A stretch of 58,099 nt of DNA from Bacteroidota bacterium. GTDB lineage: Bacteria > Bacteroidota > Bacteroidia > B-17B0 > Aurantibacillaceae. The stretch covers positions 1 through 58,099 of the forward strand of contig JAUXSA010000065.1 in the NCBI GenBank assembly GCA_030681615.1, written 5' to 3'. Below the pieces are notes generated by a model. The model made no database searches and was not told where the DNA came from. It was given only the letters and a program-made list of their open reading frames with translations. Position 1 is the stretch's first letter, and each line of letters begins with the position of its first letter. Below, one piece after another: positions 7,810-36,514 of this stretch. The position numbers and the translations under genes were made by a program.

Positions 7810-9927
7810 TTATTCTATAACCAATTTCTTAGTTGTTGTCAAACCACCATTCTTAACATTTACAAAGTAAATACCGCTTTTTAAATTTGAAAGATCTACT
7901 TCCATTTCGTTATTACCATATTGAGCTTTGTAAGAATTTTGTTTTACAACCTGACCTAAATAATTTAAAACAGAGATCTCTAAATTAGATGTAGCATCTA
8001 ACGTTAAAGCAACCATACATTTTTCGCTTGCAGGGTTTGGATATAAGGCAAATTGTACTGCCTCTTTTTTGTTCTCGTTTAAACCATTCGGAATAGGGAA
8101 AGCAAAATTTAAATTTTCAGTAGTGTAATAGTGTGTGTTAGAACCACCTTGTATATAAGGATTACTGTTTGTAACCGTTAAAGGCATTTTTACCACTACT
8201 GTATTTCCACTTGCGGCAGTTGTAACTGCGGCAGAACCTGTAGTTGGAGATGAAAAGTGGAACATAGCCCTACTGGCTACATTTGGGTTAAAACCTGTTG
8301 CCGGTTTGGTAATGTTTATTTCGGTTGGCGATAAGTTTATTCCATTTATTGGCGAAGCAGACCACATTCTTGCTTTTACATTTGGTAATGTATTCCATTT
8401 TTTACCGGCTTGTGTAAAGTTAGAATCCGATTCGGCCCAGGTATAAGTAAGAAATTGTCCATCCGGTGTTCTGCTTAATGTGATACGCGAGTCTGAAGTT
8501 ACTTTACCTGCGTCATCATCCCAAGGGTTATCGTTAAATCCGGGGTTACCCGAAACCGAGCTTGGTGCTTCGCTGCCAAGAGAATCTACAGTAATAAAAT
8601 CCCATGCTGCAGATCCGTCTCCATAAAAATCATATAAGTAAGGATGTTGGTTGGGGCCATGTGCCCATGTATATTCTTCGGTTGTATAACCCGGTGTGTA
8701 CGCTAACGAATCCACATCAGGACTTGCAGTACTTGCAATAACGCCTGCAATATGTAATTTGTTATTGGCATCCACTGCAAGATCAAATCCTTCGTATGGA
8801 TTAAAGAAAGGTATTTTCAATGACGGATTTGCATTTGTTGGGTCTAACCTGTTCTTTATTAATTGGTATGGCGCTGAATTAAAATCAATACCCGGTAATA
8901 ATGTCCACGAGGTACCGCTGTTGGTAGTTTTATAAACTATCGGTTGCCAGCCCATGTTTGATAATGTAGCGCCTGTTCTGCTTCCTAAGAACACAACGTA
9001 TCCCACTGTGCCGGCTTCGTTCCAGGCCATAGTAGCGTTTGAGTTCATTTGTAAATAAAGATCAGATTTTACAGCTACTGGTGGTACTATCGAATCGGTA
9101 AACCAGGTAAATACACCGGCAGTAAAAACACCTTTTTGTATAACAGCACCTCTTGCATCAACCGGTGCAGCATCCGGATCAGGAATTAACTGACCCATTG
9201 ATCTTACAATACCATCATCTGTAGATGAGAAACCATATACCGGCCAATCGTTAGAATATACGTTTGGACCAAACGGGCCAGCGGTACTAAAAAATTGTTG
9301 TGCATTTGGTGTTTGGCTGGCGGTATTATTAAATACAGTAGAACCTGCCACTGCTAATTGTTTACTTGCAAAAAAACTTCCACTCCAGTTACTGCCTGTA
9401 ACACACGGACCAGAGGCTACCACATAAGCATTTGCTACGTTGGTATTTCCAGGAGGGTTATATACTGCACCTTGCGGGTAACGGCCAGGGTTAGTGGCAT
9501 CAGACCAAATACAGGTACTGTCCCAGCTTGTTCCCCAGTCGCCAGAGATCATGGCAACTATAACACCTGTATTATCTACAGGGTTACCTACATAAGTAGC
9601 ACTTTTACGGTGAATAAAAGAAACCACATTTATATTATCATTATAGTGTAATGGTCTTTCTGCATTAATAACCACACCATATATATTTGCCGACGCTGAA
9701 AACGGGCTAAATGTATTAACGTTTGCGCTGCCTTTTTGCACAGGCCCCGGTAAGGGGTTATTTGCAACCGTTGTTCTATTAATATTAAGTTTATCTTTTT
9801 CAAGAGCCCCTTTATTTTTTGTGGCCAGGCGTTGCTGCATATTAATAACGCCGGTTGCTTTTGTACGGTCTTGTGCGTTAAAAGTAAGTACGCCAAGAGC
9901 CAGAATTGTAGTAAATAATCTAGTCAT
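7810..9927 (-). CDS. Large T9SS-secreted protein with Asp-box (sialidase-like) motifs
   Basis: 705 residues. A signal peptide (MTRLFTTILALGVLTFNAQ) and a T9SS type A sorting domain over the last ~80 residues (FALYPNPASEKCMVAL, SGIYFVNVKNGG, KKLVIE) mark it as exported and surface-attached or released. The body has Asp-box-like motifs typical of BNR/sialidase beta-propellers: SGDWGTSWDS, TTNSGTSWTLL and SSTDDGIVRS. I see no sialidase active-site set, so a catalytic role is not supported; adhesion or glycan binding is only a guess. It is divergent from recA and has its own terminator. Confidence 0.88.
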   Translation of the reverse strand: MTRLFTTILALGVLTFNAQDRTKATGVINMQQRLATKNKGALEKDKLNINRTTVANNPLPGPVQKGSANVNTFSPFSASANIYGVVINAERPLHYNDNINVVSFIHRKSATYVGNPVDNTGVIVAMISGDWGTSWDSTCIWSDATNPGRYPQGAVYNPPGNTNVANAYVVASGPCVTGSNWSGSFFASKQLAVAGSTVFNNTASQTPNAQQFFSTAGPFGPNVYSNDWPVYGFSSTDDGIVRSMGQLIPDPDAAPVDARGAVIQKGVFTAGVFTWFTDSIVPPVAVKSDLYLQMNSNATMAWNEAGTVGYVVFLGSRTGATLSNMGWQPIVYKTTNSGTSWTLLPGIDFNSAPYQLIKNRLDPTNANPSLKIPFFNPYEGFDLAVDANNKLHIAGVIASTASPDVDSLAYTPGYTTEEYTWAHGPNQHPYLYDFYGDGSAAWDFITVDSLGSEAPSSVSGNPGFNDNPWDDDAGKVTSDSRITLSRTPDGQFLTYTWAESDSNFTQAGKKWNTLPNVKARMWSASPINGINLSPTEINITKPATGFNPNVASRAMFHFSSPTTGSAAVTTAASGNTVVVKMPLTVTNSNPYIQGGSNTHYYTTENLNFAFPIPNGLNENKKEAVQFALYPNPASEKCMVALTLDATSNLEISVLNYLGQVVKQNSYKAQYGNNEMEVDLSNLKSGIYFVNVKNGGLTTTKKLVIE

Positions 9928-26178: not shown

Positions 26179-26862
26179 ATGAGCAATTCTAATTTTAAAA
26201 TACTGTTGGTTGATGACGAGCCGGATATTGTAGAGTTTTTAGGTTACAATTTAAAAAAAGAAGGCTACACCATACTAACGGCCAATAACGGAAAAGATGC
26301 TGTAGAGATCGCCAAAAAAGAAATTCCCCACTTAATAGTACTAGACGTAATGATGCCTGATATGGATGGGATAGAGACCTGCAGGGAATTACGTGAACAA
26401 AAAAATTTACAGGAGGTTTTAATTGCCTTTTTAACTGCCCGCAGCGAAGATTATACACAAATTGCAGGTTTTGAAGTGGGCGCAGATGATTATATTACTA
26501 AACCAATAAAGCCACGCGTGTTTATTAGCCGTGTAAAAGCCTTATTGCGTAGGTTACAGGCAAATAATATTTCAGAATCGGTTATAGAGTTTGGCAATAT
26601 TCGTATTGACAAAGAAAAACACGTGGTGTATAAAGGCCAGGAGGAAATAGCTTTACCTAAAAAAGAATTTAAATTGTTTTCTTTACTTAGCAGCAAACCA
26701 GGTAAAGTTTTTACCCGCGAATTTATTTTAGATACTGTTTGGGGCGATGAAGTAGTTGTTGGCGACAGAACTATTGATGTACACATTCGCAAACTCCGCG
26801 AAAAAATTGGCGACGATTATTTTAAGACCGTAAAAGGCGTAGGTTACAAATTTGAGTTTTAA
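26179..26862 (+). CDS. PhoB/OmpR-family response regulator without adjacent kinase
   Basis: 227 residues with a complete receiver: acidic pair in LLVDDEPDI, phospho-acceptor Asp56 in LIVLDVMMPDMDG, LTARS, and Lys in GADDYITKPIKP. The winged helix follows at ~130-227 (LPKKEFKLFSLLSSKPGKVF, DRTIDVHIRKLREKIG, VKGVGYKFEF). All key residues are intact. In contrast to the 4.8-7.0 kb pair, no histidine kinase is next to it, so its partner must be elsewhere. It is divergent from the TonB receptor. A 27-bp perfect palindrome lies after its stop. Confidence 0.95.
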   Translation: MSNSNFKILLVDDEPDIVEFLGYNLKKEGYTILTANNGKDAVEIAKKEIPHLIVLDVMMPDMDGIETCRELREQKNLQEVLIAFLTARSEDYTQIAGFEVGADDYITKPIKPRVFISRVKALLRRLQANNISESVIEFGNIRIDKEKHVVYKGQEEIALPKKEFKLFSLLSSKPGKVFTREFILDTVWGDEVVVGDRTIDVHIRKLREKIGDDYFKTVKGVGYKFEF

Positions 26863-26996: not shown

Positions 26997-27374
26997 TTAT
27001 TTCTTTTTACCGTATTTTCTTTTTGGTTTAGCGGCAGAGCTTTTAGATGATGGTATTTCTTCTCTTAGCTTAGCAATTTCTTTAGTTAGTAATTGAACTG
27101 CCTGGGCAATTTCAGATAATTCTTCTTTAGTGGCAAAACCGTAATCGGTTTTGGTTTCTTTAATATTCGCTTTCTTTTCTTCGAAAAAATCACTAACATT
27201 TACTTTTAATGTTTTTGCAATTTTCATCAAGTGAGTAGAGCTTACATCAATCTCACCACGCTCTATTTTACCATAATTGCCTGAACTCATGCCAATCTCC
27301 TCTGCCACGTTATCCTGGCTTAAACCACTCACTGCCCTTAATTGACGTATTTTTTCGCCTACTTTTTTGTTCAC
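26997..27374 (-). CDS. XRE-family regulator, probable controller of the MmeI-like system
   Basis: About 125 residues from a GTG at 27374 (a TTG two codons earlier, at 27380, is the alternative). The HTH_3 domain occupies the first ~65 residues: KIRQLRAVSGLSQDNVAEEI and YGKIERGEIDVSSTHLMKIA. A Lys/Glu-rich helical segment follows (EELSEIAQAVQLLTKEIAKL), then a basic tail ending KRKYGKKK. It is divergent from the restriction-modification gene across ~100 bp holding two identical palindromes, the layout of restriction-modification controller proteins. It is somewhat longer than typical C proteins, so a general XRE regulator remains possible. Confidence 0.88.
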   Translation of the reverse strand: MNKKVGEKIRQLRAVSGLSQDNVAEEIGMSSGNYGKIERGEIDVSSTHLMKIAKTLKVNVSDFFEEKKANIKETKTDYGFATKEELSEIAQAVQLLTKEIAKLREEIPSSKSSAAKPKRKYGKKK

Positions 27375-27409
27375 ACACAAATTTCACTCGCTTTTGGATA
27401 TTTAAACAA

Positions 27410-27476: not shown

Positions 27477-30221
27477 ATGCCTACACTTAGCTGGAATGAA
27501 ATAAAAGACAGAGCGGTTAAATTCTCTAAAGAATGGGAAAACGACTTTAATGAAGATGCGGAAGCGAAATCATTTATGGACGAGTTTTTTACCATCTTCG
27601 GAACATCACGAAGGAGAATTGGTGCTTTTGAAAAAAACATAAAAAAAGAAGATGGCAAACAAGGCTTTATTGATTTTTTATGGAAAGGGATGGTTTTAAT
27701 TGAATTCAAATCCAAAGGAAAAGACCTCGATAAAGCACATAAACAAGCTAAAGATTATTTTCCAGGCTTAAAAGATAACGAACTTCCAAAGTATATTTTA
27801 GTTTCTGATTTTGCGCGATTTCGTTTATATGACATTGAAGAAGATAAAACGATTGAGTTTGAATTAAAAGATCTGGTAAACAACGTTCAACACTTTGGTT
27901 TTATTGCTGGCTATCAGAAAAAGATATATCGCGAACAAGATCAGGCCAATATAAAAGCAGCAGAATTAATGGGTAAACTTCACGACCGTTTAAAAGAGAT
28001 TGGTTACGATGGTCATCCTTTAGAAATTTATCTTGTCCGTTTATTGTTTTGCTTGTTTGCTGAAGACACCACCATATTTAACAAACAACAATTTCAGGAT
28101 TATATCGAACAGCGCACAAATGAAGATGGAAGCGATCTTGCGCCTAAGCTCCAGGAATTGTTTCAAGTATTAAATACTGCAGAAGAAAAAAGATTCAAAA
28201 ACCTTGATGAACAATTAGCTGAATTTCGTTATGTAAATGGTAAATTATTTGAAGAGCAATTGCCAACTGCAAGTTTTGATTCTAAAATGCGGCAGGCGCT
28301 ATTAGATTGTTGTTATTTGGATTGGAGTAAGATATCACCTGCTATTTTTGGTTCCATGTTTCAAAGTGTAATGAACCCCGGAGAACGGAGAAATCTTGGA
28401 GCCCATTATACTAGTGAAAAAAACATTCTCAAATTAATAAAACCACTTTTCCTTGATGAACTCAAAGAAGAATTTGAAAGCATAAAAATAAATAAAAATA
28501 AACTTCCTGAATTTCACAGAAAACTAAGTTCATTAAAATTTCTAGATCCTGCATGTGGTTGTGGCAATTTTCTAATAATCACATATAGAGAATTAAGATT
28601 TTTGGAGATTGAAGTATTAGAGGCAATACAAAAAGGACAACAAGTAACAGATATTAGACAATTAATTCTGATTGATGTTGACCAAATGTACGGTATTGAA
28701 TATAAAGAATTCCCTGCTCGTATTGCCGAAGTTGCTATGTGGTTAATAGACCATCAAATGAACATGTTGATCAGTAACAAATTTGGTGATTATTTCGCGC
28801 GTTTGCCTTTAAAAAAATCGCCAACAATTGTACATGGGAATGCACTACAAATTGATTGGGCAAGTATTATCTCTAAAAAAGAGTTGTCATACATTATCGG
28901 CAACCCACCTTTTATTGGCAAACAAGTACAAAGTTCCGACCAGAAAAAGGATATGGAAAAAATATTTGAAGGATTGACCGGAGGAGGGACTTTGGATTAT
29001 GTTAGCGCTTGGTTTATTAAGGCAGCACAGTATATTCAAGATACAAAAATCAAAGTTGCATTCGTTTCTACTAACTCAATATCGCAAGGAGAACAAGTAG
29101 GAATTGTATGGGGTTTGATGTTTACGAAATATAAAATAAAGATACATTTCGCGCATAGAACTTTTAAATGGGGGAATGAGGCAAAAGGGAATGCTGCTGT
29201 ACATGTTGTAATTATCGGTTTAGCTAATTTCGATATTAATGAAAAAAGGATATTTGAATACGAAGACATAAAAGGAGAAGCGCATGAAATAAAAGCTAAA
29301 AATATTAATCCTTATTTGGTTGAAGGGAAAGATATATTTATCTCTACAAGAACTACCCCTTTGTGTAATGTTCCTGAAATTATAAAAGGTAGTGAGACTA
29401 CCGATGATGGTCATTTCATGTTAACGTTAGAAGAGGTAAATCAATTAAAGGAAAAGTATCCTCAAAGTTCGAAATTTATTAGGCCATTTATTGGCGGTGG
29501 CGATTTTATTAATGGAAAGATTAGGTATTGTCTTTGGTTGAAAGATTCCCCACTTAATGAAATACGGCAAATCCCTCTTATCCAAGAACGAATAGAAAGA
29601 GTAAAGAATTTTAGATTGGCAAGTAATAAAGCTAGAACAAGGCATTGGGCGAACTTTCCTACTTTGTTTTCTGAGGACAGGCAACCTAAAACTAGATATC
29701 TCGTGTTTCCTAAAGTTTCTTCGGAAAGAAGAGCTTATATACCATTTGCCTTTGTTGAACCAGAATTTATTATTAATAACACAGCTTCATTTATTCCCGA
29801 GGCGAGCCTTTATCATTTTGGAATTTTAGAAAGTAAAATGCATATGGCTTGGACAGGTTACGTTTGCGGAAGGATGAAAAGTGACTTTATCTACTCAAAT
29901 AAAATTGTATACAATAATTATCCTTGGGCAGAAAATGTGAGTGATAAGCAAAAAGCAAGTGTGGAAAGGGCAGCCGAAAATGTCCTCAAATCTAGAATGG
30001 AATTCCCAAAGTATTCCTTAGCCGACCTTTACGACCCGTTTACTATGCCGCCGTCTCTTGCCAAAGCTCACCAAGAATTAGATAAAGCAGTTGATTTGTG
30101 TTATAGACCACAACCATTTGTAAACGCTGCAAAAAGGATAGAATTTTTATTTGAACTTTACGAAAAATACACAGCAGACCTGTTTACTACAGAAAAAGTA
30201 AAGAAAGTAAAAAAGAAATAA
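27477..30221 (+). CDS. MmeI-like type IIL restriction-modification enzyme (nuclease and adenine methyltransferase in one chain)
   Basis: 914 residues, close to MmeI in length and recognisable along its full length. The N-terminal nuclease has Asp66, Glu76 and Lys78 (LIEFKSKGKDLDKAHKQAKD), the same spacing as MmeI's D-X9-EXK. A helical linker (LYLVRLLFCLFAEDTTIF in MmeI; here IYLVRLLFCLFAEDTTIF) follows. The methyltransferase has AHYTSEKNILK, motif I DPACGCGNFL (357-366) and motif IV NPPF (476-479), an N6-adenine type. The C-terminal target-recognition domain contains GRMKSDFIYS with Lys801 and Asp803. Such enzymes bind an asymmetric site, methylate one strand and cut ~20 bp away. It starts at ATG. 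Likely controlled by the divergent XRE protein. Confidence 0.95.
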   Translation: MPTLSWNEIKDRAVKFSKEWENDFNEDAEAKSFMDEFFTIFGTSRRRIGAFEKNIKKEDGKQGFIDFLWKGMVLIEFKSKGKDLDKAHKQAKDYFPGLKDNELPKYILVSDFARFRLYDIEEDKTIEFELKDLVNNVQHFGFIAGYQKKIYREQDQANIKAAELMGKLHDRLKEIGYDGHPLEIYLVRLLFCLFAEDTTIFNKQQFQDYIEQRTNEDGSDLAPKLQELFQVLNTAEEKRFKNLDEQLAEFRYVNGKLFEEQLPTASFDSKMRQALLDCCYLDWSKISPAIFGSMFQSVMNPGERRNLGAHYTSEKNILKLIKPLFLDELKEEFESIKINKNKLPEFHRKLSSLKFLDPACGCGNFLIITYRELRFLEIEVLEAIQKGQQVTDIRQLILIDVDQMYGIEYKEFPARIAEVAMWLIDHQMNMLISNKFGDYFARLPLKKSPTIVHGNALQIDWASIISKKELSYIIGNPPFIGKQVQSSDQKKDMEKIFEGLTGGGTLDYVSAWFIKAAQYIQDTKIKVAFVSTNSISQGEQVGIVWGLMFTKYKIKIHFAHRTFKWGNEAKGNAAVHVVIIGLANFDINEKRIFEYEDIKGEAHEIKAKNINPYLVEGKDIFISTRTTPLCNVPEIIKGSETTDDGHFMLTLEEVNQLKEKYPQSSKFIRPFIGGGDFINGKIRYCLWLKDSPLNEIRQIPLIQERIERVKNFRLASNKARTRHWANFPTLFSEDRQPKTRYLVFPKVSSERRAYIPFAFVEPEFIINNTASFIPEASLYHFGILESKMHMAWTGYVCGRMKSDFIYSNKIVYNNYPWAENVSDKQKASVERAAENVLKSRMEFPKYSLADLYDPFTMPPSLAKAHQELDKAVDLCYRPQPFVNAAKRIEFLFELYEKYTADLFTTEKVKKVKKK

Positions 30222-30371
30222 TGTTATTATCAAATATACATCTTCCTTCTTATTTCTAGTTTAAGATCATGCTTTTTGTGAATTTATATTGCTTTAAGGG
30301 CCTATTGGCCACAAAAACAATTTTTCCTTATATCTTCTCAAAAAATATAATTAGTTTAGTAAATCGAACTA

Positions 30372-33300
30372 ATTAAGAAATATCTGGTATCGGGAATTAT
30401 TTCCCTGTTTTTTTCTTTTCAGGTAATTGCACAACAAAGTGTAATTGATTCATTCAAACTTTTATTGGCCAATGCCAAACACGATACCACACGTTGCCGA
30501 ATTCTACTTGCAATGGTAGAAGCTGAAAGCGAAGAAAAAATATGGCAGGCATATAATAAACAAGCAAAAACCATTGCTGAAAAAAATATTGCCAGTGGCG
30601 ATAAGCTAAAAAAAGTTTATTTGAATTTTCTTGCTTCCACTCATAATAATATTGGCGTTGGGGCAACATATAGCGGTGACAATAACAAGGCGCTCCAAAA
30701 TTTTAAAGAAAGTTTATCGATCAGTAAACAGATCGGTGATAAACATCTTGAAACAGAAGCGTTAAATAATATTGGATATGTTTATGATATACAAGGCAAC
30801 ATTCCACTTGCCCTTGAATATTTTCACGAATCTTTAAAACTCTATGAAATGCTTAAAAACGACTTTGGCACTTCTAACACCTTAAATAATATTGCAACCA
30901 TTTATGCAAAACAGGGCGAAAGGGATAAAGCATTAGAGTATCACAACAAGAGCTTAAGAAAAAGAGAACATATAAATGATAAAGCCGGTATAGCCCAGTC
31001 GTTAAACAACATTGGCGCTATTTACGATGCAGATGGCGGAACGAGATCCCTTGAGTTTTATCAAAAAAGCTTTGCAATTTACAAGGCGATAGGAGATCAG
31101 CTTGGTATTGCAAATGCCTCCAACAACATCGGTTCTATTTATCACCGACAAGGCAACAACTCATTAGCCTTGAGTTATTTTGAGATGAGTTTAAAGATCC
31201 ATAACGAACTCCAAAATAAAAGCGGCGCTGCTTTTACACTTAATAATATTGCCTCGCTATTCTTAAAAAATAAAAATTACGATGAGGCCCTGCCTTATGC
31301 CTCTAAAAGTATGCAGGTTGCTAAAGAAGTTGGATACCCCGAAAGGATAAAAAGTTCAGCCGACATTTTAAAGAGGATATTCATCCACCAAAAAAAATAT
31401 AAAGAAGCTTTTGAAATGTATGAATTGGAAATTAAAATGCGCGACAGTATTAATAACCAGGAAACACAAAAAGCAGCTGTTAAAAAAGAACTACAATATG
31501 CTTACGAGAAAAAAGAACTGGAAATAAAAGCAAAGCAGGATAAAAAAGATGCCGTCGCTAAAGAAGCATTAAAACAAAAAGAAAAAGAGCGAAATTATTT
31601 TATTGCAGGCTTTGCCTTAGTAATACTTTTGGTTTTATTTATTTTACGAGGATACTGGCAAAAACAAAAAGCGCATAAGATCATTATAACACAAAAACAT
31701 TTGGTAGACGAAAAACAAAAAGAAATTTTAGATTCTATTCATTATGCCAGAAGAATACAGTTAGCTTTATTGCCAAGTGAAAAGTATATTGATAAAACAC
31801 TGAAACAATTAAATAAAAAGGTTTTGTCTTGCTTCTTGCTTCTTGTGTCTTTTGTCTCGTTCTCTCAAAATACTGATTCACTTAAGCTCGCGCTTAAAAA
31901 TGCAACCCATGATACCACGCGCTGCAATATTTTAAATTTGATAGTGGAAACAGAAAGTGATGACGCTATATGGCCGAAATACAATGAGCAACTAAAAAAA
32001 CTAGCCGAAAAAAACATTACAACTAATTCTGAATTCAAAAATATTTATTTAAAATATCTTTCCATAAGTATAAATAATATTGGCGTTCTTTATCAAAGCG
32101 AAGGTAACCTTTCAAAAGGGTTAGAGTCGATGCTTGCATGTTTAAAAATTCAGGAAGAAATAGGTTTTAAGGCCGGGATCGCCGCTTCGCTGAATAGAAT
32201 AGGAATTATTTATGATTACCAGGGCAACCTCTCTAAATCATTAGAAAGCTACGAACGAAGTTTAAAGATAGTTGAAGAAACTGGTGATAAAAGCGCCATT
32301 GCGCATTCATTGAACAACATTGGTTACACTTACATAAGACAAGGAAATATTAAAGGCCTTGATTATTTACACAAAAGCTTAAAGCTTTACGAAGAAATGA
32401 ATGATAAACAAGGGCTATCTAGTTCGCTAAATAACATTGGTTACATTTATGAAGAACAAGGCGATTTTGATAACGCATTAAAATATTATAAAAAAAGTTT
32501 AGTGGTAAGTGAAGAGCTTAAAGAAAAAAAATCAATAGCCCGGGCTTTAAATAATATTGGAGGTGTTTATAGCCGCCAACAAAAGTATGCAGATGCATTA
32601 ACCAATTATCGAAAAAGTATAAAGATCTCTGAACAAATTGGTGATAAAAGTGGGGAGGCTAATGCTCTGGTAAAAATAGGCGCTATTTTTCAAGCCAATG
32701 GTTTTGATTCCGCTAACTGTTCTAAAGAAGATGCCATAAGAAGCCGGCAAACAAAAGCGCTTGCATGTTTTAAAAAAAGTTTAACTATTCGTGAAGAGAT
32801 AGATGATAAAAACGGTATTTGCAATACATTAAATTGTCTTGCCGGGTTAATGCTACAAACCGGTAAAATACAGGAGGCTTTTTTATACGGTAGTAAAGCA
32901 ATGCAAATAGCAAAAGAATTAGGTTATCCCTTAAACATACAATATGTAGCAACAAACCTTAAAACAATTTATAAAAAGCAAAACAAGTATAAAGAAGCTT
33001 TAGAAATGTATGAATTGGAAATGAAAATGAGAGATAGTATAAACAACCAGGAAACACAAAAAGCAGCTATTAAAAAACAAATGCAATATACTTTTGAGAA
33101 AAAAGAATTGGAAACAAAAGCGCAGCAGGATAAAAAAGATGCTATTGCAAAAGAAGCATTAAAACAAAAAGAAAAAGAACGAAATTATTTTATTAGTGGT
33201 TTTAGCATTGTTTTAGTTCTTGCATTGTTTATTTTAAGAGGCTACCGCCAGAAACAAAAAGATAATGCCATTATAACCGCGCAAAAACAATTAGTGGATG

Positions 33301-33416
33301 TAAAACAGAAAGAAATTTTAGATTCAATTCATTATGCTAACCGTATACAAACCGCTTTATTACCAAGCGAAAAATATATTGGCAAGAGTTTAAAACAATT
33401 GAATAAAAAAGTTTAG
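30372..33416 (+). CDS. Fused tandem TPR membrane sensors (two paralogous units in one frame)
   Basis: The frame holds two copies of one architecture. Unit 1 has a signal peptide only if translation starts at ATT 30372 (xKKYLVSGIISLFFSFQVIA); the first conventional codon, TTG 30465, lies after it. TPRs, one TM helix (FIAGFALVILLVLFILRGYW), and a coil ending LPSEKYIDKTLKQLNKKV follow. Unit 2 starts directly with a second signal-like stretch (LSCFLLLVSFVSFSQ), more TPRs, a TM helix and the ending LPSEKYIGKSLKQLNKKV then TAG. Both carry the KEILDSIHYAxRIQ linker that leads into a SpoIIE phosphatase in the next gene, but stop just after it. The junction codon is TTG 31824, where unit 2 has its TAG. 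Confidence 0.8.
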   Translation: MKKYLVSGIISLFFSFQVIAQQSVIDSFKLLLANAKHDTTRCRILLAMVEAESEEKIWQAYNKQAKTIAEKNIASGDKLKKVYLNFLASTHNNIGVGATYSGDNNKALQNFKESLSISKQIGDKHLETEALNNIGYVYDIQGNIPLALEYFHESLKLYEMLKNDFGTSNTLNNIATIYAKQGERDKALEYHNKSLRKREHINDKAGIAQSLNNIGAIYDADGGTRSLEFYQKSFAIYKAIGDQLGIANASNNIGSIYHRQGNNSLALSYFEMSLKIHNELQNKSGAAFTLNNIASLFLKNKNYDEALPYASKSMQVAKEVGYPERIKSSADILKRIFIHQKKYKEAFEMYELEIKMRDSINNQETQKAAVKKELQYAYEKKELEIKAKQDKKDAVAKEALKQKEKERNYFIAGFALVILLVLFILRGYWQKQKAHKIIITQKHLVDEKQKEILDSIHYARRIQLALLPSEKYIDKTLKQLNKKVLSCFLLLVSFVSFSQNTDSLKLALKNATHDTTRCNILNLIVETESDDAIWPKYNEQLKKLAEKNITTNSEFKNIYLKYLSISINNIGVLYQSEGNLSKGLESMLACLKIQEEIGFKAGIAASLNRIGIIYDYQGNLSKSLESYERSLKIVEETGDKSAIAHSLNNIGYTYIRQGNIKGLDYLHKSLKLYEEMNDKQGLSSSLNNIGYIYEEQGDFDNALKYYKKSLVVSEELKEKKSIARALNNIGGVYSRQQKYADALTNYRKSIKISEQIGDKSGEANALVKIGAIFQANGFDSANCSKEDAIRSRQTKALACFKKSLTIREEIDDKNGICNTLNCLAGLMLQTGKIQEAFLYGSKAMQIAKELGYPLNIQYVATNLKTIYKKQNKYKEALEMYELEMKMRDSINNQETQKAAIKKQMQYTFEKKELETKAQQDKKDAIAKEALKQKEKERNYFISGFSIVLVLALFILRGYRQKQKDNAIITAQKQLVDVKQKEILDSIHYANRIQTALLPSEKYIGKSLKQLNKKV

Positions 33417-33429
33417 TTTAGCGGATCTA

Positions 33430-35595
33430 TTGAATAAAATCATAAAATATTTCTTATTTGGCTCAGCGGTACTTTTATTTCAATTAAATTTATTTGGACA
33501 AACTATTGACTCCTTAAAACTTGCACTTAAAACTGCGAAGCACGATACTGTGCGTTGTACTATTTTATCGGCATTGGCCGAAACAGCAAATGAAAATGAA
33601 TGGCCTGTTTTTAATGAACAATTAAGAGTTTTAACCAAAAAAAATGCTGATTTATTAGCCGCTAGTCACCCTTTAAAAAAATTTTATTTAAAACTCCATG
33701 CCTTTGCCTTAAACAACTTTGGATATTTGTATGATGAAAAAGGAGATATTACCAAAGCGCTGGATTATTATTTCAGAAGTATAAAAATTCATGAAGAGCT
33801 CGGGAATAAAAGCGGAATAGCAAGTTCTTTAAACAATATTGGATTTATTTATAAAAAGCAAGGCGATATACAAAAGGCATTAGAATATTATCACAAGAGT
33901 TTAAAGATCAAGGAGGAAATAGGTGATAAAAAAGGTGTATCAAAATCTTTAAATAATTTTGGCAGTCTTTATAAAGATCAGGGCGACCTCTCAAAAGCAT
34001 TGGAATATTATGAAAAAAGTTTAAAAATACTTTTAGAGACGCAAGATAAAAGAGCTATTGCAACTTTAATAAATAATATTGGAACTATTTATAACTCAAA
34101 AGAGGATCTTCCAAAAGCATTAGATTACTGTCAACAAAGTTTAAAACTTAGAGAAGAGGATGGTGACAAAAGCGGAATTGCAAACTCTTTAAGTACGCTT
34201 GCAAATATTTATAAAAAGCAAGGCAACATAACCAAAGCAATAGAGTACCATCAAAAAAGTTTAATAATTTATGAAGAGATCGGCGAAAAAAAAGGAGAAG
34301 CAACTTCAATAATTAACCTCGCAAATATGTTGGCTAAAGGTAACCAACTAAATAACGCATTGCTTTATGCTAATAAGGCCATGAAAATATCTAAGGATTT
34401 AGGTTTCCCTGAGCATATTTATCGCTCGGCAAAAGTCATCAAAACAATATATCAAAAACAAAACAAATTTAAAGATGCATTTGAAATGTTTGAACTGGAA
34501 ATAAAAATGCGGGATAGTATTAATAACCAGGAAACACAAAAAGCCACAGTTAAAAAGCAAATACAATATAAGTACGAGAAATTAGCATTCCAGGATAGTG
34601 TTGCTCACGCTAAAGAAAATGAAATTAAAAATGCTGAAATAGCCAAACAAACAGCCGAAGTGAAAAATAAGAAAAATCAACAATACGGTCTTTTTGGAGG
34701 ACTGGTGCTTGTAATGGTATTTGCGGGATTTATATTTAATCGTTTTAAGGTTACCCAAAAACAAAAACATATTATTGAAATAAAAGAAAAAGAAACACAA
34801 CATCAAAAACATATTATAGAAGAAAAGCACAAAGAAATTACCGACAGTATTAATTACGCTGAAAGAATACAACGAAGTTTTATTGCTACTAAAGAAATGT
34901 TGGACGAAAATCTGAACGACTACTTTGTTTATTTTTTACCAAAAGATGTGGTTAGTGGTGATTTTTATTGGGCAGGTAAACTAAACAACGGAAACTTTGC
35001 TTTAGTAACGGCAGATAGCACAGGACATGGCGTGCCGGGTGCTATTATGAGTTTACTTAATATAACCAGTTTAGAAAAAGCGATTGAAAATTACACCGAA
35101 CCTTCTGAGATTTTAAATTCAACACGTAAAACAATTATCGAGCGATTAAAAAAGGATGGCAGCCCCGGAGGCGGTAAAGATGGAATGGATGCGAGTTTAA
35201 CTGTTTATGATTTTAAAAATAATAAACTAATAATTGCAGCAGCTAATAATCCTATTTGGATCGTTAGAGGACGGAAGGATGAGGCCGAAGTTATCGAAAT
35301 TAAACCTGATAAAATGCCGGTTGGTAAACATGATAAAGATACTGTTTCGTTTACACAACAAGAAATACAATTACAAAGCGGCGATGTTGTTTATACTTTA
35401 ACAGATGGTTTCCCAGATCAGTTTGGTGGCAAAAAAGGAAAAAAATTCATGACAAAAAATTTAAAAGAATTGCTTTCTGCTAACGCTCATTTACCTATGA
35501 ATGAGCAAAAACAAATACTCGAAAAAACTTTTACTAATTGGATTGATAATTTGGAACAGGTTGATGATGTTACTTTAATAGGGGTTAGAGTTTAA
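33430..35595 (+). CDS. TPR-transmembrane SpoIIE-type PP2C phosphatase
   Basis: 721 residues from a TTG. Signal peptide 1-23 (KYFLFGSAVLLFQLNLFG), then six or more TPRs at ~95-340, several exactly 40 residues apart (YKKQGDIQKALEYYHKSLKI and kin). One TM helix is at ~421-437, then a coiled coil with EITDSINYAERIQRSF, and a PP2C domain from ~495 to the end: VVSGDFYWAG (Asp511), ADSTGHGVPGAIMS, GKDGMDASLTVYD, LTDGFPDQFGG, VDDVTLIGVRV. The TPRs should sit in the periplasm and the phosphatase in the cytoplasm. It follows the fused TPR gene by 13 bp, so the array is probably one transcript. Its target is unknown; a SiaB-like kinase lies at 53.8 kb. Confidence 0.93.
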   Translation: MNKIIKYFLFGSAVLLFQLNLFGQTIDSLKLALKTAKHDTVRCTILSALAETANENEWPVFNEQLRVLTKKNADLLAASHPLKKFYLKLHAFALNNFGYLYDEKGDITKALDYYFRSIKIHEELGNKSGIASSLNNIGFIYKKQGDIQKALEYYHKSLKIKEEIGDKKGVSKSLNNFGSLYKDQGDLSKALEYYEKSLKILLETQDKRAIATLINNIGTIYNSKEDLPKALDYCQQSLKLREEDGDKSGIANSLSTLANIYKKQGNITKAIEYHQKSLIIYEEIGEKKGEATSIINLANMLAKGNQLNNALLYANKAMKISKDLGFPEHIYRSAKVIKTIYQKQNKFKDAFEMFELEIKMRDSINNQETQKATVKKQIQYKYEKLAFQDSVAHAKENEIKNAEIAKQTAEVKNKKNQQYGLFGGLVLVMVFAGFIFNRFKVTQKQKHIIEIKEKETQHQKHIIEEKHKEITDSINYAERIQRSFIATKEMLDENLNDYFVYFLPKDVVSGDFYWAGKLNNGNFALVTADSTGHGVPGAIMSLLNITSLEKAIENYTEPSEILNSTRKTIIERLKKDGSPGGGKDGMDASLTVYDFKNNKLIIAAANNPIWIVRGRKDEAEVIEIKPDKMPVGKHDKDTVSFTQQEIQLQSGDVVYTLTDGFPDQFGGKKGKKFMTKNLKELLSANAHLPMNEQKQILEKTFTNWIDNLEQVDDVTLIGVRV

Positions 35596-35681: not shown

Positions 35682-35683
35682 TG

Positions 35684-35757
35684 TGGTCCCACTTGGAATC
35701 GAACCAAGCACCTACTGATTATGAGTCAGTTGCTCTAACCGAATGAGCTATAGGACC
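35684..35757 (-). tRNA. tRNA with CAU anticodon (Met, or Ile2)
   Basis: 74 nt on the minus strand. The acceptor stem is GGTCCTA/TGGGACC with discriminator A and no encoded CCA. The D arm is in TAGCTCATTCGGTTAGAGCA, the anticodon stem-loop is CTGACTCATAATCAG with anticodon CAT, and the T arm is in CTTGGTTCGATTCCAAG. CAU reads Met; if the first anticodon base is modified to lysidine it reads AUA (Ile2). Elongator Met is my preference, from overall resemblance. A broken copy of its 5' part lies immediately upstream. Confidence 0.95.
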
Positions 35758-35830: not shown

Positions 35831-35884
35831 TTCCCTCAAGAGGGATTGCAAAAATAGATAAAAGCCCCATATTTGCAAAATAAA

Positions 35885-36514
35885 ATGCAACATATAAAAA
35901 ATATCATTTTCGACCTTGGCGGCGTTATCATTAATTTAGATACCACTAAAACCATTGCTGAATTTAATAAACTCTCTTATATGCCTTTTGAGGCCATTTA
36001 TACGCAGGCAGGGCAAAACAGCTTGTTTGACGACTTTGATAAAGGACACATTTCTACCGAAGAATTTTTTGATGAATTAAGAAAAGAACTGCGTTATACC
36101 GGGCCGGATATAGATTTGCTGAAGGCCTGGAACGCCATGCTGTTGGATGTTCCTGAGAAAAGACTGGATACTTTAGTGACAATGAAGCAAAACTATAACA
36201 CTTTTTTATTAAGCAACACCTGCGAACCCCATATTGCGGCTTTTGAGCACGACCTTTACCTTAAACACGGCGTAAAAAATTTTAATGATTACTTTGACGA
36301 AGTTTATTATTCTTGCCGCATGGGAATGCGTAAACCAAACAAGGAGATCTTTGAATTTGTTTTAGAAACAAATAATTTAAAGCCCGAAGAAACTGTTTTT
36401 ATTGATGATTCTATTCAACATGTAAAAGGCGCAGGCGAATGCGGTATTAGCGCTTTTTTACTGCCTAAAGGTGATGAAATAACTGATTTTTTAAAAGGTC
36501 TTGGCTTGCTGTAA
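35885..36514 (+). CDS. HAD-superfamily hydrolase (YihX-like subgroup)
   Basis: 209 residues from ATG 35885 (a TTG four codons upstream also fits). HAD motifs: I is FDLGGVIINLD, where the residue two after the nucleophile is Gly rather than Asp, as in YihX-type sugar-phosphate phosphatases. Motif II is LLSNTCEPH, motif III is the Lys in MGMRKPNKEIFEF, and motif IV is VFIDDSIQHV. The helical cap between motifs I and II is typical of subfamily IA. It probably dephosphorylates a sugar or other small phosphate ester; the substrate is not evident. It stands alone after the tRNA region. Confidence 0.9.
   Translation: MQHIKNIIFDLGGVIINLDTTKTIAEFNKLSYMPFEAIYTQAGQNSLFDDFDKGHISTEEFFDELRKELRYTGPDIDLLKAWNAMLLDVPEKRLDTLVTMKQNYNTFLLSNTCEPHIAAFEHDLYLKHGVKNFNDYFDEVYYSCRMGMRKPNKEIFEFVLETNNLKPEETVFIDDSIQHVKGAGECGISAFLLPKGDEITDFLKGLGLL

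Follow-up and report, generated by a model that had tools for sequence, protein, structure and literature searches.

What does it mean for two membrane receptors to share one open reading frame: has a stop codon been lost, has an assembly joined neighbours in error, or is the join itself part of the gene? The question arises in the window (the whole 58,099-nucleotide stretch of DNA from a Bacteroidota bacterium analysed here), whose longest open frame, at 30363-33416, runs for 1,017 codons through two TPR receptor units and meets no stop up to 33413. A sequence-only reading of this DNA had proposed an in-frame fusion of two TPR receptors, and the frame, free of internal stops, bears this out. 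Judged from sequence comparison, it is probably a real, inherited fused gene, and its likeliest product is a tandem receptor whose topology is consistent and which signal peptidase may cut. Left unrecognised, such joins would be mistaken by annotation pipelines and readers for mutations or assembly errors.

Two phosphatase-less units in one frame

Unit 1 (30378-31823, plus strand) comprises a signal-peptide-like N terminus, a TPR domain, one membrane helix (RNYFIAGFALVILLVLFILRGYW, 31590-31658), a cytosolic coil, a DSIHYARRIQ helix (31731-31760) that lies 28 residues, or four heptads, past the membrane helix, and a basic tail. Unit 2 (31869-33413, plus strand) is built likewise of a TPR domain, a membrane helix (33180-33245), a coil, DSIHYANRIQ (33321-33350) and the tail LKQLNKKV. 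After the TPR domain, the single membrane helix and the cytosolic coil, the two share the words DSIHYAxRIQ...ALLPSEKYI...LKQLNKKV. Their TPR domains match PF13424 above the Pfam cut-off (8.7e-44 for unit 1 and 5.6e-47 for unit 2). A third unit follows on the same strand (33430-35595, candidate TTG start) and is full length, with TPR domain, membrane helix, coil and a SpoIIE phosphatase domain (PF07228 at about 34987-35592, 3.7e-24). The Pfam scan (E up to 0.001) detects no PF07228 in unit 1, unit 2 or the fused chain, nor does it detect a histidine kinase domain in units 1-3.

The start of unit 1 is unusual. No ATG, GTG or TTG lies ahead of its signal-peptide-like stretch (30363-30400), and the best candidate is an ATT at 30378. 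The string ATT AAG/AAA AAA TAT CTG precedes the first array unit at the same place in the related genomes G019 and G006, which suggests a conserved AUU start for that unit.

The two units end alike and then part. From 31809, at the end of unit 1, the DNA reads TTA AAT AAA AAG GTT TTG TCT TGC; from 33399, at the end of unit 2, it reads TTG AAT AAA AAA GTT TAG. LNKKV is encoded at both ends and is followed by leucine (TTG, 31824-31826) in one case and by the stop of the fused frame (TAG, 33414-33416, plus strand) in the other, and the DNA confirms both codons as first reported. After this TTG, unit 1 continues into SCFLLLVSFVSFSQ. The junction (31815-31868, plus strand, TTG included) forms an internal signal-peptide-like segment, KKVLSCFLLLVSFVSFSQ, within which a candidate signal peptidase site precedes a Q. 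The earlier description of such a segment between the units, and of four hydrophobic segments in the fused product, is supported, and the protein sizes given with it hold (482 residues between ATT 30378 and the junction, 530 when counted from the TTG). An open junction is unconvincing by itself, 25 random codons of this composition staying open with a probability of about 0.12; what lifts it above chance is the presence of homologous fused junctions in five genomes. The fold predicted for the fused pair (9 sequences) is confident in the TPR parts and weak at the junction, with pLDDT below 50 (residues 430-497).

Going by motif and alignment, units 1 and 2 belong to a class of TPR-membrane-coiled-coil receptors without a phosphatase domain, in which the SpoIIE/PP2C entry helix DSIxYAxRIQ is retained and tandem arrangement is frequent. 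Counted from the first residue of DSIxYAxRIQ, motif-bearing frames in the fetched stretches either continue for about 242-271 residues (full-length forms) or reach a stop after 26-34 (short forms). The 31 full-length and 23 short units, both window units counted, are lower bounds, the motif rule missing variants (L228 and L229 yielded no unit); the short set consists of 22 phosphatase-less paralogues in the fetched stretches, which stop 26-34 residues from the motif start, plus unit 1. The tail signature L[LM]P[ST][ED]K[YF][ILVM] occurs in 22 of the 23 short units and in none of the 31 full-length ones, which suggests that the short form has been maintained as a class and is not a product of decay. 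Short units, picked by the motif, align through it and retain the heptad-spaced coil: membrane helix and motif are 28 residues apart in both window units, and their distance is a multiple of 7 in 22/31 full-length and 19/23 short units, with helix ends set by a simple rule and binomial statistics that ignore relatedness.

A profile of the short tail finds matches in 161 of 295 genomes sampled from the class, a figure that is no count of short units, as the profile also finds full-length proteins; many of the matches listed lie in frames of 430-560 codons. Within the window's own genome (G000; 4.28 Mb, 199 contigs) unit 2 has 155 matches. The same genome contains 64 SpoIIE matches, of which 63 pass the cut-off and some are fragments, a large phosphatase expansion.

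Recurrence of the fusion at a common locus

Of 87 genomes surveyed in the order, at least 7 carry fused junctions, which are of three dissimilar kinds. Among the matches listed from 40 genomes of the genus and 87 of the order, 12 junctions are homologous to one another and belong to five genomes, the own genome included (G000 with one, G006 with three, G007 with one, G012 with six and G041 with one). Conservation of the junction in relatives, which the sequence-only reading had named as a check, is seen in the four genomes other than G000. In G006 a frame of 2,086 codons carries four units and three junctions, and in G012 one of 2,412 codons carries five units and four of that genome's six junctions. 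Two further fused junctions, in G021 and G080, are dissimilar in sequence.

All 14 fused junctions place a hydrophobic segment in frame after a basic tail, and by inspection each has a signal-like segment whose n-region is basic and whose candidate cut site is preceded by small residues. The residue preceding Gln (13 junctions) or Gly (one) is, by eye, Ala or Ser in every case. Signal peptides were judged by eye and by hydropathy, with hydropathy and charge computed for 13 of the 14. The leucine at the TTG position is kept in 12/12 homologous junctions; its codon is TTG in nine and CTT, TTA or CTG in the other three. For 16 chosen pairs among these 12 junctions, the signal-like segment has a dN/dS of about 0.28, against 0.07-0.11 for the coil, membrane helix, linker and TPR start, values from related, hand-picked pairs with near-saturated synonymous sites, in which selection may partly have acted on separate genes. 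For the tail pN/pS was used because synonymous sites are saturated, and it is 0.13 over the same pairs.

How fusion relates to ordinary tandem arrangement can be gauged from 73 cases in 12 genomes, in which a short unit is followed within 2,600 bases by a same-strand unit (short in 69, full length in four). Thirteen are fused, 15 share the frame with a stop between and 45 lie in another frame; a further sample of 30 cases (18 loci, 12 genomes, two of the loci without a unit) includes one fusion. As the tandem loci were partly chosen for fusion, these fused shares are not rates. Among the 60 unfused cases of the first sample, a candidate start overlaps the stop by four bases in 25 and directly follows it in 11, which suggests that coupled initiation is widespread. 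Seen this way, fusion resembles the extreme of a general tendency to couple translation tightly. The stretch L220 (G226:C22:125000-142000), from a different family of the class, holds eight phosphatase-less units in seven neighbouring pairs, none of them fused.

The array occupies a common locus. Its left mark is an OmpR-type response regulator (26179-26862, plus strand), whose protein is identical in G019 and G006; on its 3′ side lie, directly, a tRNA-Met (35683-35757, minus strand) and then the right mark, a HAD-type hydrolase gene (35873-36514, plus strand). Between the regulator and the array, the own genome carries an HTH gene (26997-27380, minus strand) and an MmeI-type restriction-modification gene (27477-30221, plus strand). 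A relative of the HTH protein (79%) adjoins the G007 array. In G000, G019, G006, G007 and G012 the array has the response regulator on one side and the tRNA-Met with the HAD gene on the other, the tRNA-HAD piece being inverted in G006; the G041 stretch contains regulator and array only. At this locus the units are fused in five of six genomes (G000, G006, G007, G012 and G041) and unfused in G019. Among 17 other regulator loci, the G053 and G055 stretches end too soon, G048, whose regulator is 98% alike, shows no unit in the 4.1 kb beyond it, and the 14 more distant ones have a unit only in G010 and G022, full length in both, and no short-unit array in the stretch. The array is therefore not universal at the locus and is seen there only in near relatives.

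On a tree of the response regulator (660 nt), G000 is sister to G019 (99/96), and both group with G006 (99/99). The unfused G019 is thus nested among fused genomes, which makes fusion the cheaper ancestral state, one split costing less than several fusions, on a tree of one 660-base gene with 15 of 20 inner branches open, beside an array whose units recombine.

Origin of the junction and rival explanations

Unit 1 has a mosaic 3′ end. Compared with its G019 counterpart, to which its TPR DNA is 92.9% identical, it is about 93% alike up to about 31,572 and about 75% beyond: in 75-base bins, identity is 0.84-0.99 from 30,297 to 31,571 and then 0.77, 0.71, 0.77 and 0.63 across roughly the final 250 bases, from 31,572 to the junction. 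The stretch exchanged relative to the G019 orthologue (31572-31823, plus strand) covers membrane helix, coil and tail, and the linker of the G019 unit is not among the five best linker matches of unit 1 (0.799-0.814). Over 34 units, linkers are more alike within genomes (0.833) than between them (0.772), a difference that 0 of 1000 label shuffles equal, and the TPR parts differ less (0.589 within vs 0.572 between; 27 of 1000 shuffles as high). Linker likeness within genomes, together with the break near 31,572, points to an exchange of 3′ ends among units.

The G019 junction is of another make. It carries a 154-bp element with 25-nt inverted ends, which supplies a stop through a TGA on the left and a start through ATG codons on the right. 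In array junctions, elements of about 154 bp lie at L120:6073-6226, L120:7845-7998 and L115 at about 8340-8490, with the inverted ends detected in L120. In a search of 31 genomes of the genus (E up to 0.001) the element is unmatched in the own genome, and a remnant of it at the window junction was accordingly rejected as a candidate; short motifs like its ends occur in two own-genome stretches (L069 and L076), and the ends find matches elsewhere in the genus. At E up to 0.1, no Rfam family matches the G019 junctions.

One rival history, built on the one-base change put forward in the sequence-only reading, is a recent loss of the stop (TAG to TTG) in the own strain, neutral or harmful. Unit 2 does end in the same words followed by TAG, and the closest relative, G019, is unfused. 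The proposal founders on the relative itself: its DNA after LNK is quite different, with the 154-bp element and a diverged 3′ end, so it is no close relative with a stop and similar junction DNA. With the mosaic 3′ end of unit 1, the nesting of the unfused state on the regulator tree, the varied junction codons and recurrence in at least 7 of 87 genomes also against it, this account was rejected and we consider it very improbable. An assembly artefact, in which collapsed or chimeric repeat units made the join, is more improbable still. The 3′ ends of the units are very similar, which is where short-read assemblies err, but homologous joins appear in five genomes and keep the frame despite codon-level differences among them.

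Another possibility is that two separate proteins are made, with unit 2 starting internally at TTG 31824 or another codon and the open frame being incidental. TTG is a frequent candidate start among these units, and the four-base start/stop overlaps and immediate restarts of unfused tandems (25 and 11 of 60) point to coupled initiation as a common arrangement. The specific idea that TTG is a conserved start of unit 2 was abandoned, as the codon varies in three of the 12 homologous junctions and the leucine is constant. In addition, a signal peptide beginning at TTG would have no basic residue, coupling would find no termination in a frame without a stop, and frames as long as 2,086 and 2,412 codons remain open; separate proteins are accordingly an unlikely outcome. 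An alternative that overlaps with the inherited fused gene is a chain that is never cut and works as a single tandem receptor, its two TPR domains accompanied by four membrane segments. It agrees with the consistent topology of the fused junctions, with purifying selection on the fused frame, and with the layout of the related sensor FimS, described as having two membrane helices around its TPR domain (PMC11053733), a layout that favours the uncut form. The Ala or Ser before Gln or Gly at 14/14 fused junctions, and hydrophobic segments as short as those of cleavable signal peptides, speak against it, and a whole chain is a plausible minority outcome.

Topology and possible fates of the chain

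For the inherited fused gene, a coherent mechanism may be outlined. In each unit the TPR domain would lie outside the inner membrane, and a single membrane helix would lead from it to a cytosolic coil in heptad register and, after that, to the entry helix and a short basic tail. In SpoIIE-type phosphatases the entry helix leads into the catalytic domain; units 1 and 2 keep the helix and the register without that domain. The tail of unit 1 would serve a second time, as the positively charged n-region of the signal peptide ahead of unit 2, so that the second TPR domain would be exported again and the topology of both units preserved. The fused junction itself would be of old standing, a module carried from unit to unit as the conserved coil and linker recombine or undergo conversion, and a base change at 31825 is probably not its source.

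The second hydrophobic segment is probably an internal signal peptide. Signal peptidase I may cut there, releasing two receptors in a fixed ratio; if uncut, the product would be one receptor with four membrane segments. Cleavage is the leading candidate among the fates, though held at somewhat under even chances, ahead of a chain left intact, and other outcomes together are given a small share. The likeliest role of the short receptors would be as coil-to-coil partners of full-length TPR-SpoIIE proteins, unit 3 among them, whose activity they would damp or retune. We infer the pairing with unit 3, like translation as one chain, export and cleavage, from sequence features. A broader and rather doubtful extension is a receptor polyprotein, in which variable arrays made as one chain would be cut by signal peptidase into fixed-ratio partners that pair, by way of heptad-matched coils, with full-length TPR-SpoIIE proteins, and recombination in the linker would shuffle the sensors.

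Several known systems share parts of this design. The SpoIIE/PP2C phosphatases RsbU and SiaA have coiled-coil linkers and the same entry helix; the signal in RsbU passes via a coil that brings the phosphatase domains together (PMC12143880), and SiaA dimerises through helices 1-3 (PMC7647112). The SiaA structure 6k4e begins with DSLDYASLIQ, to which the unit 3 motif aligns. Unit 3 has a catalytic domain, as RsbU and SiaA do, whereas units 1 and 2 have none. FimS-type TPR sensor kinases of Bacteroidota have the same order of a TPR sensor outside the membrane, a membrane helix and a cytosolic output (PMC11053733). Unlike FimS, units 1 and 2 have no histidine kinase domain and are fused in tandem, and the NCBIfam FimS-type match of unit 1 is below threshold (107.9 bits against a cut-off of 600).

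This combination offers three linked and testable things: phosphatase-less receptors, a fusion that recurs with up to five units, and a locus with fused and split sister species. Among open-licence papers (titles and abstracts), none was found on fused TPR receptor arrays or on bacterial cutting at internal signal peptides. If the chains are cut there, polyproteins would be a bacterial means of fixing receptor ratios; left uncut, the chains would be tandem receptors of unusual build.

Membrane polyproteins cut at internal signal peptides include the flavivirus envelope polyprotein and the Bradyrhizobium FbcH cytochrome b-c1. Like these, the window's frame joins membrane proteins through an internal signal-like segment. 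It differs from them in that such frames hold two to five copies of one receptor family, and cutting here is a candidate only. A closer parallel within the genus is an RND pump-TolC fusion in G049 (L255:6446-10855, minus strand), where ACR_tran and OEP domains occupy one frame of 1,469 codons with a signal-like segment between them. That fusion is an efflux system and not a receptor array; its outer-membrane part must be released somehow, which makes cutting more compelling there and an uncut chain hard to picture.
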